40,427 bases of DNA from a virus. Below, in pieces: positions 15,747 to 27,571 of the stretch. The first letter of the stretch is position 1. The number at the start of each line of letters is the position of its first letter. The stretch is from the IMG/VR virus record IMGVR_UViG_3300021335_000034, positions 1 through 40,427 of that record; one strand, written 5' to 3'. The position numbers were made by a program, and so were the translations under genes. The notes beneath the pieces were generated by a model, which saw only the letters and a list, made by a program, of their open reading frames with translations, was not told the DNA's origin and made no database searches.

Positions 15747-16013
15747 TTAGGTAAATGCTTGATTGTTGAGCATGTTGTTGGCGGTGTTCAGCCGCTGAAA
15801 CAGTTGCGGCAGGATGTAAAAGTGACCTTCACGCTTGGCTGCTTCGATCATGTTAAGGGTCTCGGTGCGAAACTCTTGCCACTGTTGGCGGTGGGAGGGC
15901 TTGGTGGCTTGAGCTGCGGGCCGGAGAGTGACGACTTTAGTGGCTTGAGCGAGGTTGGCAGCCTTAAAAGCGGCGGTCTCAGTTGCGGTGCGGGTGGGGT
16001 TGAAGCGAATCAT
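15747..16013 (-). CDS. Hypothetical protein, 88 aa, with hairpin leader
   Basis: The protein is helical and basic (MIRFNPTRTATETAAFKAAN, later REGHFYILPQLFQRLNTANN). I do not recognise it. It is worth noting for its upstream region, which carries a promoter and hairpin leader nearly repeated at 20795-20886 before another small gene. It lies between terL and portal, so its promoter may start a separate transcript. Confidence 0.6.
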   Translation of the reverse strand: MIRFNPTRTATETAAFKAANLAQATKVVTLRPAAQATKPSHRQQWQEFRTETLNMIEAAKREGHFYILPQLFQRLNTANNMLNNQAFT

Positions 16014-16099
16014 TTGCTTGTGTGTGGTGGGGTTTCCCCCTGACTCCTCAAGTATGCACCAGCTAAGCCCTGCTTCACCGTGTTGTGTGCAGTTTTTGC
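16014..16099 (-). promoter_or_regulatory. Promoter with 5' hairpin leader, copy on the minus strand
   Basis: Reading the minus strand from 16099: GCAAAAACTG, ACACAACACGGTGAAGCAGG, then TGGTGCATACT with CATACT (16056-16051) as -10, ten bases, the hairpin GGGG-GAAA-CCCC (within 16040-16029), ACCACACACAAG, and the ATG at 16013. The same blocks in the same order precede the gene at 20887. There is no purine-rich ribosome site next to the ATG. Confidence 0.6.
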
Positions 16100-18833: not shown

Positions 18834-19049
18834 TCAGAAATCTTCAGGTGAGATGATTTGTTCGGAGCGGAGAAGGTTTTGATGTCGGACGCCACGGTAA
18901 CCGTTGGGGAAGGTTTTCCAGTTGACGTGCATGTTGTCTTTGAAGCCTGGCGATGGGTCATCGAGGCATTCGAGGGTGATCAAACCACGATCGAGCATGT
19001 GCTTAAGGGTTTGACGGACGGAGACTAGATCAAAGGCGAGCTTGGACAT
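18834..19049 (-). CDS. Small protein with C-terminal IISPEDF motif
   Basis: This 71-aa protein has a winged-helix-like pattern (SVRQTLKHMLDRGLITLECL). Its last seven residues, IISPEDF, are identical to those of the exonuclease at 22743-23528 although the proteins are otherwise unrelated. The ATG overlaps the TGA of the initiator gene (TGATG), so it is coupled to replication initiation. A binding partner shared with the exonuclease is a reasonable guess. Confidence 0.6.
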   Translation of the reverse strand: MSKLAFDLVSVRQTLKHMLDRGLITLECLDDPSPGFKDNMHVNWKTFPNGYRGVRHQNLLRSEQIISPEDF

Positions 19050-19852
19050 CAGAAGAGATTTTGAAGGACTGGGTTTGTGACGGGCTCATCATCAAAACCA
19101 TGTTGCGCTGTAAATACCCGTGATGCAGGGTGCTTCGCCGTGACGACTTCAGAGGCGCTGTAAGGCGCCTGAGGGCGTGGTTTGAACACATCCCCCCAGC
19201 CACTAGCAATAGCACGCTCTAAGGCGCTCCTGCGGTCGTCTGTGCTCCATTGCCGCAGTTTGTTGCAGATGCGCTTGAGGACGCTGCTAGATCGCGTGCC
19301 TTTCTTCGTGGCCCAAAACTCGACGAGCAGATCAGCGCAGTCGTCCAGCTCAAACGGGATCGACGTACGCGGCAGCTTCTTCGTTCGATTCGGATCAAGC
19401 CCTTTTTCCGCGCTTGCGCGTTGGGTTCTTGTTCTTGGGTTCTTGTTCTTGGGTTCTTGTTCGTAGGTCGTTTTCGACCTAGGGGGTAGGTCGTTTTCGA
19501 CCTGGGGGGTAGGTCGTTTTCGCCCTAGGGTACCTAGGTCGTTTTCGACCTGGGTCAAATTCGACCTGGGTGTCGGAGACTCGATTTTGACGTGGTAAAC
19601 GGTGGTGTAACCCAAGCGTGGTTGCGCTTCGATCCAGCCGATTTCCTTTAACCACTTCAAAGACCGTTGGATGACCTTGCGGCTGATACCGGTTTCAACG
19701 TGGATGGTGTGTAGCGAAGTCCAGCAGCCTTGATCGGATCCCCAGCCATGGCGATGCAGCACGGCATATACCGCCCATGTGACAGCATCAGCCTGATCCA
19801 TGAGCTTGTATGGGATCGCGGCGAAACCGCTAGCGGAAATTTTTGTGGGCAT
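19049..19852 (-). CDS. Replication initiator-like winged-helix protein (lambda O-like role)
   Basis: The 267-aa product has an N-terminal winged helix-turn-helix (about residues 15-92: AVTWAVYAVLHRHG, CWTSLHTIHVETGISRKVIQ, LKWLKEIGWI), a low-complexity linker (about 93-150), and a helical C-terminal domain (about 165-240). The linker DNA holds five copies of a palindrome and three of a 14-bp repeat. This is the layout of lambda O, where the origin iterons are inside the initiator gene. No helicase or loader gene was seen nearby, so it may recruit host proteins. The function is inferred from architecture. Confidence 0.65.
   Translation of the reverse strand: MPTKISASGFAAIPYKLMDQADAVTWAVYAVLHRHGWGSDQGCWTSLHTIHVETGISRKVIQRSLKWLKEIGWIEAQPRLGYTTVYHVKIESPTPRSNLTQVENDLGTLGRKRPTPQVENDLPPRSKTTYEQEPKNKNPRTRTQRASAEKGLDPNRTKKLPRTSIPFELDDCADLLVEFWATKKGTRSSSVLKRICNKLRQWSTDDRRSALERAIASGWGDVFKPRPQAPYSASEVVTAKHPASRVFTAQHGFDDEPVTNPVLQNLF
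19421..19462. repeat. 14-bp tandem direct repeat, three exact copies
   Basis: TTGGGTTCTTGTTC occurs three times head to tail. It lies in the linker of the initiator gene next to the palindromic iterons. As 14 is not a multiple of three, the three copies are read in three different frames of the same gene (giving EQEPK, NKNP and RTRTQ). Confidence 0.9.
19465..19567. repeat. Palindromic iterons, candidate replication origin
   Basis: The 16-bp palindrome AGGTCGTTTTCGACCT is at 19465, 19488 and 19536 (perfect), 19511 (one base changed) and 19552 (several changes). The first three are spaced by 23 bp, about two helix turns, with a G-rich AGGGGGT spacer. They lie inside the initiator gene, as with lambda ori within O. 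An initiator dimer on each arm pair is the natural reading. Confidence 0.75.
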
Positions 19853-20181: not shown

Positions 20182-20601
20182 GTGATTCAGCTTTCTGTCA
20201 ACGGCTTGGAGCCAGCACCCCAAGGCAGTAAGCGCCACGTCGGTGGTGGCAGGATGGTCGAGGCAAGCAAGCGCGTAAAGCCTTGGCGTGCAGCGGTAGC
20301 AGCAGAGGCTGAGCTAGCGGGTGAGCAGATCGCTGGTGCGTGCGCCATCAGCATCGTGTTTCGGTTCTGCCGCCCCAAAGGTCATTTCAAAGCCAGTGGT
20401 GATCTGCGCGACACTGCACCACGGCATTGCATCGTGAAGCGGAACGACATCGATAAGTGCATCAGGTCAACGCTGGATGGGCTGGTACAGGGCGGATTGC
20501 TAGTGGACGACTGCCTTGTGGTGACGATCAACGCGGAGAAACGGTACTGCGTTGGGGCTGAACCGCCTGGTGCGCTGATCGACGTGATGGCACTGGGTTG
20601 A
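20182..20601 (+). CDS. rusA: RusA-like Holliday junction resolvase
   Basis: With a GTG start at 20182 the protein is 139 aa. It has the RusA core: an N-terminal strand with NGLEPAPQGSKRH and the catalytic region RNDIDKCIRSTLDGLVQGGL followed by VDD. Asp89, Asp91 and Asp110 have the same spacing (2 and 19) as the three catalytic aspartates Asp70, Asp72 and Asp91 of E. coli RusA. Earlier non-ATG starts would run into the divergent gene. The stop is inside the -35 box of the next promoter. It resolves branched DNA before packaging. Confidence 0.85.
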   Translation: MIQLSVNGLEPAPQGSKRHVGGGRMVEASKRVKPWRAAVAAEAELAGEQIAGACAISIVFRFCRPKGHFKASGDLRDTAPRHCIVKRNDIDKCIRSTLDGLVQGGLLVDDCLVVTINAEKRYCVGAEPPGALIDVMALG

Positions 20602-20626
20602 CGCACGGCGAAGCAGGGTGTACGAT
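20598..20626 (+). promoter_or_regulatory. Sigma-70 type promoter, TTGACG-17-TACGAT
   Basis: TTGACG (20598-20603), a 17-bp spacer and TACGAT (20621-20626). The spacer begins CACGGCG and the same 13-base string TTGACGCACGGCG forms another promoter at 21661. The TGA stop of rusA lies within the -35 box. Confidence 0.7.
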
Positions 20627-20794
20627 GGAGGCACGCCATAAGCCAGATGTGCCCTCGGGCAGGCGCTGGATTCTCGCCCATAGAGACACGAGCTATGGGG
20701 TTGGAAACAGATCACACGACCAACTGAAAAACGAGATCAACATGGCCTGACTAAGCCTGCATCGCCGGTTGGCCCGGCACCACATTTCAGCCAC
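20602..20794 (+). other. Region without a clear gene between rusA and the second promoter
   Basis: A 41-codon frame starts with an ATG at 20625 that overlaps the -10 box, so transcripts from that promoter would lack it. No ribosome site or family match is seen. Short inverted repeats (TGCCC/GGGCA near 20660 and GCCGG/CCGGC near 20763) are present. I see no supported gene here. Confidence 0.4.
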
Positions 20795-20886
20795 GCAAAA
20801 AACTGTTACACAACACGGCGCAGCAGGGTTGAGATGGTGCATAATTACATCAAGCGGGACACGAGCCCGCACCACCCCACAAAATC
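20795..20886 (+). promoter_or_regulatory. Promoter with 5' hairpin leader, first plus-strand copy
   Basis: GCAAAAAACTG, then ACACAACACGGCGCAGCAGG, then TGGTGCATAAT with CATAAT (20840-20845) as -10. Eight bases later comes the hairpin GCGGG / CCCGC (20854-20870) with a seven-base loop, then ACCACCCCACAA and ATG at 20887. All blocks recur before 16013 on the other strand. The -35 is not consensus, so the conserved CACGGCG-GCAGGG block may bind an activator or a different sigma factor. Confidence 0.6.
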
Positions 20887-21063
20887 ATGTTCTACATCGC
20901 CCGCAACACACTTCCCTTCACACGCAACATGAGCAAGAAAGCCGCCTTGGCTCTTTGGGAAGCCAACAAAAGCACTGAAGCCACAGACAGCGCTCTTTAC
21001 CAGCTCTGCAAAGCCACAGCTACCAGCAGCATTAACCCTGTGGTCGTCATAAATTTGGTTTGA
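20887..21063 (+). CDS. Hypothetical protein, 58 aa, with hairpin leader
   Basis: ATG 20887 to TGA 21063 encodes MFYIARNTLPFTRNMSKKAA and a Thr/Ser/Ala-rich remainder. It lies after a strong leader element and 4 bases before the methylase-like gene, so it is probably expressed early. No family is recognised. Confidence 0.6.
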   Translation: MFYIARNTLPFTRNMSKKAALALWEANKSTEATDSALYQLCKATATSSINPVVVINLV

Positions 21064-21067
21064 TGCA

Positions 21068-21664
21068 ATGCGCGTATTAGTCGCTTGCGAATACTCAGGT
21101 CGTGTCCGTGATGCTTTTAGGCGTTGCGGACATTTTGCTATGAGCTGCGATTTGCTGCCCACTGAGGCTGATGGACCGCACTATCAAGGACCAGTCGAAG
21201 ACGTGCTCGTTGAAGGCTGGGATCTCATGGTTGCTCATCCACCCTGCACGCATCTCGCCGTTTCCGGCTCTCGGCATTTTCCTGCCAAAATTGCCGATGG
21301 CAGGCAGCAGGCAGCTCTTGATTTTGTTCGACTGCTTATGGATTCACCGATCCCGCGTTGGTGCATCGAAAATCCAGTCAGCGTAATTAGCTCTGTCATC
21401 CGGCGTCCAGATCAAATTATCCAGCCTTGGCAGTTTGGGCATGGTGAAACCAAGGCAACATGCCTATGGCTAAAAAACCTCCCAAAACTCAAGCCAACAA
21501 ATTGCGTAGAAGGCCGTGAAGCACGGATTCACTTGATGCCGCCAAGTCCTGATCGTTGGAAAGAGCGCAGCCGCACCTTTGAAGGCATTGCTTTTGCCAT
21601 GGGCGAGCAATGGGGCAATGCGCCTTTGCCAGCAATTGCAGATCAGTTAAGCCTTTTAGGTTGA
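21068..21664 (+). CDS. Cytosine-C5 DNA methyltransferase-like protein
   Basis: The 198-aa product has a Rossmann-like start (MRVLVACEYSGRVRDAF), HPPC with Cys60 at the place of the catalytic PC motif, and ENPVS (residues 101-105) as the ENV-type motif. It is much shorter than usual Dcm enzymes and lacks an evident target-recognition domain and the FxGxG motif in standard form. It may modify phage DNA against host restriction or make a modified base. Activity is uncertain. Confidence 0.65.
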   Translation: MRVLVACEYSGRVRDAFRRCGHFAMSCDLLPTEADGPHYQGPVEDVLVEGWDLMVAHPPCTHLAVSGSRHFPAKIADGRQQAALDFVRLLMDSPIPRWCIENPVSVISSVIRRPDQIIQPWQFGHGETKATCLWLKNLPKLKPTNCVEGREARIHLMPPSPDRWKERSRTFEGIAFAMGEQWGNAPLPAIADQLSLLG

Positions 21665-21727
21665 CGCACGGCGCATCACGGTCTACCGTCTCAGCAAGCA
21701 GGCCCAGCCTGCACCACCCCACAAGCC
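21661..21727 (+). promoter_or_regulatory. Promoter with 5' hairpin leader, second plus-strand copy
   Basis: TTGACG (21661-21666), 17 bp, TACCGT (21684-21689), eight bases, then hairpin GCAGG / CCTGC (21698-21712) and ACCACCCCACAAGCC up to ATG 21728. Compared with the copy at 20854 the third stem pair changes from G-C to A-T, keeping the pairing. The TGA of the methylase-like gene is inside the -35 box. Confidence 0.7.
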
Positions 21728-21835
21728 ATGATCACCGTCATCCGCAAGCAGCGTCCTGTACTGCCAGGTGAAACGCTGCCGCCTGCACCACCGAGCTACA
21801 AAAAACCCGCACCGCAACTGCCGCCAATCAAATGA
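21728..21835 (+). CDS. Proline-rich small protein, 35 aa
   Basis: ATG 21728 to TGA 21835 encodes MITVIRKQRPVLPGETLPPA and a further Pro-rich end (10 Pro in 35). It begins the transcript with the hairpin leader and overlaps the next gene by ATGA. The function is unknown. Confidence 0.55.
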   Translation: MITVIRKQRPVLPGETLPPAPPSYKKPAPQLPPIK

Positions 21836-22113
21836 ACATCCCAACAGATCAGCAACTAGGCCACCGTATTGAATCCATCGTCCGCACCATCGCTGTTATC
21901 GCTGCTTTTGTTTACACCACGGGGTTCACCTGCGGGCAAGCAATCCATTGGTTATCAGCCAACCTCACGCAACTGCACATCCATCTCCTAAAACCCAATG
22001 ACGCCAAAGCCGGGCATGTTGACACGCATCCTGTTGTTCTTACTCCCGACTTTGACAATCGCGTCAATATTGGACGCACACGTACAACCAGCTCTAAAGG
22101 TTTTGCCGCATGA
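21832..22113 (+). CDS. Small membrane protein, 93 aa
   Basis: It has one likely membrane segment (TIAVIAAFVYTTGFTCGQAI, residues about 19-38) and a hydrophilic, His/Thr-rich C-terminal part. It overlaps both neighbours by ATGA. The role is unknown; an early protein acting at the host membrane is possible. Confidence 0.55.
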   Translation: MNIPTDQQLGHRIESIVRTIAVIAAFVYTTGFTCGQAIHWLSANLTQLHIHLLKPNDAKAGHVDTHPVVLTPDFDNRVNIGRTRTTSSKGFAA

Positions 22114-22253
22114 ACAAGAAAAGATTTTACTTTGCCATTCCCGAGGCGAATGTATTTGAATGCGTCTGGGCTTTTAGCTTTACGGAAGCCAAGCAACTTG
22201 TAGCAGCAGAATGGCTGCCATTTTGGAACAAAATCGAATGGATCAACCAATGA
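22110..22253 (+). CDS. Hypothetical protein, 47 aa
   Basis: ATG 22110 to TGA 22253 encodes MNKKRFYFAIPEANVFECVW and continues with four more Trp or Phe-rich turns, ending WINQ. It overlaps its neighbours by four bases on each side. It is aromatic-rich and unrecognised. Confidence 0.55.
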   Translation: MNKKRFYFAIPEANVFECVWAFSFTEAKQLVAAEWLPFWNKIEWINQ

Positions 22254-22438
22254 CGCAAAAATTCAAGCCAATGGACCTTGTTTATGTCCGTAACTGGCCA
22301 TTGAACGAGCACGTCGAAGTTTTGCAGCGCATTGACGTCATGACGCCATTGCCGCATTACATCGTACGGACAAAACACGGCGCCAAGTATCAGATCAGTC
22401 AACTTGAGCTATCAAAGCACAAGATCGAGAAATCGTGA
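22250..22438 (+). CDS. Hypothetical protein, 62 aa
   Basis: ATG 22250 is chosen because it overlaps the previous TGA (ATGA). The protein looks like a small beta-barrel (FKPMDLVYVRNWPLNEHVEV, then PHYIVRTKHGAKYQIS) of the KOW/SH3 type. The function is unknown. It closes a four-gene coupled run that began at 21728. Confidence 0.55.
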   Translation: MTQKFKPMDLVYVRNWPLNEHVEVLQRIDVMTPLPHYIVRTKHGAKYQISQLELSKHKIEKS

Positions 22439-22490
22439 GGACTCGCGCCGCTGCCACCCCTGGTCAACGGCGCTATCCCACCTGACTGTA

Positions 22491-22545
22491 TCGACAACGC
22501 CCTTACCCGTGGTACACTGTGCTCAGTCCCGCTGGACTCCACCCC
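22491..22545 (+). promoter_or_regulatory. Promoter with 5' hairpin leader, third plus-strand copy
   Basis: TCGACA (22491-22496), 16 bp, TACACT (22513-22518) with TGG before it (extended -10), six bases, then hairpin AGTCC / GGACT (22525-22538) with loop CGCT, CCACCCC, and ATG at 22546. The stem sequence differs wholly from the other copies but position and the CCACCCC tract are kept. Confidence 0.65.
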
Positions 22546-22746
22546 ATGATGACTACCACCCTCAACAAAATTCAGGAGCACCATACGCTCCTTACTGCCC
22601 GTCGTTTTGGCGGCACCTTTATTAGCACCATTGCTCAGGCTGGAATTTTTGCTGATCCAGAAAACCGCAAGCGTGTTTTTGCTGCATTCCCAGAACTGGT
22701 TTATCAGTACGGACCTTCAAGTCACTTCTATTCCGAAGATCAGTGA
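22546..22746 (+). CDS. Hypothetical protein, 66 aa
   Basis: The ATG at 22546 follows the hairpin leader. The protein (TLNKIQEHHTLLTARRFGGT, then DPENRKRVFAAFPELV) is mixed helical and unrecognised. It overlaps the exonuclease GTG by four bases, so it leads the recombination operon. Confidence 0.55.
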   Translation: MMTTTLNKIQEHHTLLTARRFGGTFISTIAQAGIFADPENRKRVFAAFPELVYQYGPSSHFYSEDQ

Positions 22747-27532: not shown

Positions 27533-27571
27533 AATAACTGCTAAGCTACCGCCGGTCATCATTACCACCCC
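27533..27571 (+). promoter_or_regulatory. Leader of the sigma-factor gene with ACCACCCC tract
   Basis: TGCTAAGCT (extended -10 like) is followed by a tract ACCACCCC abutting the ATG at 27572. Only a three-pair hairpin is visible, and no -35. It is a partial match to the leader elements at 20854, 21698 and 22525. Confidence 0.35.

Follow-up and report, generated by a model that had tools for sequence, protein, structure and literature searches.

A family of hairpin-and-tract leaders upstream of genes in a group of related cyanophages

Leader sites and genes in the window

The window, by which we mean the whole stretch of DNA that was analysed, is a 40,427-base virus contig. It is related to cyanophage KBS-S-2A (identity is 83% across 68% of the compared stretch), while the Synechococcus phages S-CBS1 and S-CBS3 are more distant relatives. 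Among its genes are a sigma factor (PHROGs) and exonuclease VIII. Near the middle of the window, we found three small plus-strand ORFs that each follow the same layout, which consists of a –10 box, a short hairpin, an A/C-rich tract and an ATG (sites B, C and D; Table 1). The preliminary description had proposed this layout for three plus-strand sites, and all three are present; the shared layout holds at B, C and D with two corrections, namely that the stem of site D lies just 7 nt from its ATG and that site B has no convincing –35 box. Site E, on the minus strand, is a fourth copy of the layout beyond those three.

Table 1. Positions of leader elements and associated genes in the window.
Feature	Position	Strand	Remarks
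Site E tract ACCACACACAAGCAA	16014..16028	–	5' of an 88-aa ORF starting at 16013
Site E hairpin GGGG-GAAA-CCCC	16040-16029	–	GNRA loop; matched by a model built without site E
Site E –10 box CATACT	16056-16051	–	10 nt to stem
Promoter A TTGACG-17-TACGAT	20598..20626	+	consensus match; CACGGCG.AGCAGGGT block common to sites B and C
Structured leader RNA	20627-20783	+	core 20700-20778
Pseudoknot	helix 20700-20704/20720-20724 interleaved with helix 20710-20713/20735-20738	+	covariation
Small hairpin in core	20744-20746/20755-20757	+	middle pair changed among homologs
Terminal hairpin of core	20764-20768/20774-20778	+	invariant GCCGGUUGGCCCGGC, which belonged to the search pattern (constancy partly by selection); often continuing into an A/C tract
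Site B –10 box CATAAT	20840-20845	+	8 nt to stem; from sequence
Hairpin B GCGGG-ACACGAG-CCCGC	20854-20870 (arms 20854-20858/20866-20870)	+	covariance model 31.3 bits; seed sequence
Site B tract ACCACCCC	20871-20878	+	ATG at 20887
ORF B, small, 58 aa	20887..21063	+	no PHROG family
DNA methyltransferase-like gene	21068-21664		between sites B and C; PHROG 757, E 2e-70
Site C promoter TTGACG-17-TACCGT	21661-21689	+	8 nt to stem
Hairpin C GCAGGC-CCA-GCCTGC	21698-21712	+	covariance model 42.9 bits; seed sequence
Site C tract ACCACCCC	21713-21720	+	ATG at 21728
ORF C, small, 35 aa	21728..21835	+	kept in KBS-S-2A and relatives
Site D –10 box TACACT	22513-22518	+	6 nt to stem
Hairpin D AGTCC-CGCT-GGACT	22525-22538	+	double changes among orthologs
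Site D tract CCACCCC	22539-22545	+	abuts the ATG at 22546
ORF D, small, 66 aa	22546..22746	+	no PHROG family
Tract ACCACCCC without hairpin	27564..27571	+	directly 5' of the phage sigma-factor gene

The sequence of hairpin B also precedes another gene in KBS-S-2A. In that phage, different genes lie between the positions of B and C, and a B-type leader is found 5' of ORF C, so the leaders seem to move as cassettes.

In a plain sigma70 scan of the window, promoter-like sites were no commoner than in shuffles; our promoter assignments therefore rest on conservation instead. The block CACGGCG.AGCAGGGT lies just 5' of the –10 boxes at sites A, B and C (20604-20619, 20814-20829 and 21667-21682) and could be a candidate regulator site. 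A 39-nt block upstream of site B (20808-20846, plus strand) recurs at 85% before site E (16050-16088, minus strand). This promoter block, ACACAACACGGYGMAGCAGGG...TGGTGCATAMTT, has no clear –35 box, is shared by genes on opposite strands and is also found at L003:6290-6340 and L476:200-240; perhaps it marks promoters that are read by the phage sigma factor, or a regulator binds there. Elsewhere in the window, tandem repeats at 19421-19570, inside a minus-strand ORF (19049-19852), are of two kinds: TTGGGTTCTTGTTC, which recurs every 14 nt, and GTAGGTCGTTTTCGACCTAGGGG, whose unit is 23 nt.

Geometry, pairing and distribution of the leader family

Relatives were first gathered by protein, and a hairpin-plus-tract scan then gave many similar leaders with other stems. 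Because such a scan selects for pairing, we searched the viral collection again by promoter letters alone (TTGACNNNGGNNGNNNANGGTGTAGGAT). In this promoter-only search, in which pairing was not used, a GC-rich hairpin lies 6-11 nt past the –10 box in 61 of 80 distinct leaders, as compared to a shuffled expectation of 4.05. When leaders were selected by promoter plus tract, a hairpin was present in 65 of 72 long leaders (5.95 expected) and in 1 of 18 short leaders (0.35 expected).

The geometry of the 65 hairpin leaders is nearly constant: the distance from –10 box to stem is 8-9 nt in 60, the gap from stem to tract is 0 nt in 61 and the distance from stem to ATG is 15-17 nt in 60. Such a fixed spacing from the –10 box would put each stem right at the beginning of the message, as the preliminary description had predicted; with start sites read from the promoters, the 8-9 nt spacing would leave 1-3 unpaired nucleotides 5' of the stem. 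The stems have 4-8 pairs and the loops 3-9 nt, giving 27 distinct stem-loops. Where the loop has 4 nt, it is a GNRA loop in 9 of 10 distinct stem-loops (GAGA, GAAA, GCGA, GCAA), and G-U pairs are present in GGAGGC/GCTTCC stems. The letters and length of the stem vary, as does the size of the loop; what stays constant is the pairing, the position and the adjoining tract.

To quantify the conservation of pairing, we used 31 distinct leaders, in which 95.5% of cells are paired and double changes occur at 4 of 5 pairs. Covariation of the leader hairpin is 0.514, whereas slid versions do not exceed 0.117 and shuffles have a mean of 0.155, and the value of 0.514 was reached in 0 of 500 shuffles; the rows are related, so these shuffle counts and covariation figures are not probabilities. 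A MAFFT alignment of all leaders displaces sites D and E; neither was counted with the family, and for D we compared its orthologs separately. At this position 5' of the orthologous gene, the stem is AGTCC/GGACT in the window and KBS-S-2A, AGTTC/GAACT in L125 (where the exonuclease is 98% identical) and AGCTC/GAGCC in L126 and L128, where the outermost pair of the hairpin is lost. Two pairs have changed on both sides, and slid versions have none. Pairing is therefore conserved in related phages although the stem bases differ, both among the site D orthologs and across the family, which bears out an earlier claim made from the window's sites. Because pairing has been preserved while stem letters changed, the hairpins very likely act in RNA.

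The preliminary description had also suggested that cyanophage genomes be searched with a covariance model. Across 0.61 Mb of related phages, our model, R1, gave 50 sites at E ≤0.01, a number that includes the seed sequences, and there was no match at this threshold in 0.85 Mb of control DNA from S-CBS2, S-CBS4, Syn5 and cyanobacteria. Site E, absent from the R1 seed, ranked fourth in the window (E = 0.18). In four whole host genomes, the leader model gave one match at E = 0.0009, whose flanks have no clear layout, and otherwise weak matches; the top leader-model match in host loci (L254) was inspected and does not resemble a leader. A blastn search with the leader consensus found no match in phage records. 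The leader seems to belong to one Synechococcus phage group and not to its host.

In the window, CCACCCC occurs 7 times, always on the plus strand, as compared to 2.9 expected, and 2 of 100 shuffles reach 7. The tract by itself is weakly above chance. The combination of promoter, hairpin and tract is not chance, given the promoter-only, promoter-plus-tract and covariation tests. In short leaders (about 22-31 nt from –10 box to ATG), the tract is kept and the hairpin is absent, and most end in ...TCCCACCC-ATG or ...TTCCACCC-ATG. Since the tract stands alone in these leaders, it can be separated from the hairpin; the two are distinct modules rather than the single element that had been proposed. 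The sigma-factor gene is preceded by the tract in KBS-S-2A and S-CBS1 also. Nor is the tract obligatory, because the KBS-S-2A counterpart of site E, which keeps the promoter and has a different first hairpin, carries a second hairpin in the tract's place.

We tried the exact string GCACCACCCCACAA as a wider marker in IMG/VR and rejected it, as nearly all matches outside close relatives read as chance. Two contigs found by the exact tract (L036:4500-4560 and L086:3660-3720 (+)) have a weak hairpin, GACC-ACG-GGTC, followed by GCACCACCCCACAAGC and, some 10 nt beyond, an ATG; they possibly represent other phages with this type of leader. The idea that the tract is a phage copy of a host signal was also dropped; ACCCCAA is not clearly enriched before picocyanobacterial starts (0.4% versus 0.2%).

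The leaders had been described as lacking a ribosome site. We found that pairing with the anti-Shine-Dalgarno sequence at ≤ –4 kcal/mol occurs in 1% of 69 leader genes. The share is 25% among phage genes and 37% among host genes, the host figure saying little about real Shine-Dalgarno (SD) use because host shuffles reach 35%. In this absence of SD pairing, the leaders are like the SD-less, S1-dependent leaders of cyanobacteria. The predicted unpaired probability near the start is 0.72 in leaders, 0.49 in other phage genes and 0.59 in shuffled leaders, so the start region is predicted to be unusually open.

A neighbouring pseudoknot RNA and a GCCGGA element

Promoter A, upstream of site B, leads into a structured RNA (Table 1) of which we collected 68 distinct sequences from related cyanophages, S-CBS1 and S-CBS3 included (for example L141:8974-9050, L166:8277-8352 and L004:3963-4041). 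The two interleaved helices of its pseudoknot are GUUGG/CCAAC with GAUC/GAUC in the window; elsewhere they are CGCG/CGCG with GGGU/GCCC, GGGG/CCCC with GAGC/GCUC, or CGGCC/GGCCG with GCGC/GCGC. Across 47 distinct cores, 99.5% of cells are paired, and covariation is 0.370 as compared to at most 0.069 for slid versions. In the relatives, a stem-like block lies 7 nt past the –10 box in 45 of the 48 leaders with a readable –10. The window copy deviates in its 5' part. Among the homologs, a second pseudoknot (loop GCGG with downstream CCGC) looks likely in the 5' part of the RNA.

When we searched 300 host-family genomes, one had a full copy of the pseudoknot RNA (93.8 bits) and a second had a partial, weak one (24.9 bits). 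The full copy sits 5' of a small ORF resembling S-CBS3 gp41, and the locus looks like a prophage or phage remnant. Structured RNAs of cyanophages, often in leaders, are already represented in Rfam by manA, wcaG and PhotoRC-II (PMC2864571); the present RNAs are likewise structured and from cyanophages, but no Rfam 15 family reached the gathering threshold in the window or in the five relatives scanned. In open-access full texts, we found no description of the hairpin-tract leader or of the pseudoknot RNA. The covarying pseudoknot RNA appears to be an undescribed RNA family.

Another structured element, GCGGC-CC-GCCGGA-GCCGC-ACCCAA-TCCGGC, lies just 5' of an A/C tract and ATG at L156:2086 and in many relatives, and at L127:1090. 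Its general form is GCGGC..GCCGGA..GCCGC..TCCGGC with an N6 spacer, and it is not bound to the leader promoter. It could fold into two hairpins that exclude each other or, alternatively, into a compact H-type pseudoknot; the inner stem hardly varies.

Possible functions of the leaders

The explanation we favour, with roughly even confidence, is that these are phage-specific modular mRNA leaders in which 5' hairpin caps protect the message ends and an open region without an SD sequence serves the start. Transcription from a sigma70-type promoter would begin about 0-4 nt ahead of a short GC-rich hairpin, and the 5' triphosphate end would be tucked against the stem. The 3' arm of the stem would pass directly into an unstructured A/C-rich tract, with the start codon about 15-17 nt past the stem (7 at site D), approximately at the edge of the ribosome footprint. 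By analogy with E. coli, the hairpin would most likely hinder 5'-end-dependent decay, both at an RppH-like removal of pyrophosphate and at RNase E entry. In E. coli, RppH and RNase E need single-stranded 5' ends and 5' structure slows both, which accounts for stabilisation by such structure (PMC3997798). The G-poor tract would keep the start open, and ribosomes would load without SD pairing. A further role of the hairpin, keeping the SD-less start region clear, is suggested by the constant stem-to-ATG distance and the openness of the A/C tract. Start sites, decay protection and use of the tract by ribosomes are what we infer. With stems and loops as diverse as these, a generic barrier is a better fit than a site recognised by one specific partner.

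A less probable alternative is that the hairpin serves translation and not decay, insulating the start from upstream RNA and leaving, about 17 nt before the AUG, an open standby region on which ribosomes could load with no SD sequence. The stem-to-ATG spacing that is constant in 60 of 65 leaders would follow from this, as would the predicted openness of the start region, and the promoter-independent GCCGGA elements also precede A/C tracts and an ATG. However, it leaves the equally constant –10-to-stem distance unexplained, site D has just 7 nt between stem and ATG, and short leaders manage without a hairpin.

It is improbable that the hairpins act on RNA polymerase, as put- or boxB-like signals for antitermination in cis or for pausing. 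Like lambda boxB and the HK022 put sites, they are short promoter-proximal hairpins of phage transcripts, present on several transcripts per phage, and some of their GNRA loops are reminiscent of boxB. Lambda boxB, however, has a constant GNRA-fold pentaloop on a 5-bp stem with boxA 5' of it, whereas the 27 stem-loops found here, with 3-9 nt loops of many sequences, offer no constant loop for a protein. Their stems would begin at about +2 to +4, and the approximately 1-3 nt of predicted transcript before the stem leave no room for a boxA. The HK022 put sites are also larger than these hairpins. Slightly less probable again is that the hairpins are sites at which a phage or host RNA-binding protein regulates these genes, as might be suggested by the several copies per genome and the GNRA loops in a subset, but stem letters, stem length and loop size are all variable. 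Lying near +3 of the promoters, the palindromes could also be read as DNA operators that overlap the start site. We consider this very unlikely, because they have no common sequence and their G-U pairs and GNRA loops suit RNA and not duplex DNA.

Protective 5' caps, the explanation we favour, have counterparts in known messages. Early mRNAs of T7 are phage messages that end at a hairpin, and these ends are made by RNase III processing; in contrast, the present hairpins would be placed at the 5' end by promoter position. The leader of E. coli ompA is described as carrying a 5'-terminal stabilising stem-loop (Emory 1992, as cited in PMC7509114). The phage leaders resemble it in having a hairpin at the putative extreme 5' end with a single-stranded start region downstream and, like ompA-type hairpins, they conserve pairing and not sequence. 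They are unlike ompA in that they occur in several copies per genome, have the stem fused to an A/C tract, lack an SD sequence and have stems that are 4-8 pairs long and often capped by GNRA loops; stabilisation is assigned to them by analogy.

It is possible, and we put this forward tentatively, that one phage lineage evolved interchangeable 5' RNA caps, comprising the hairpins and the undescribed pseudoknot RNA, all leading through a hairpin into an A/C tract, which replaced host leader signals and set both message life and translation without SD pairing. The 5'-terminal hairpins known so far belong to single model messages. If a phage group uses one repeatedly, on several transcripts and with fixed geometry, its naturally occurring compensatory variants would offer a ready means of testing how mRNA life is governed by 5' structure, and the same leaders would serve for studying SD-less ribosome starts in picocyanobacteria.
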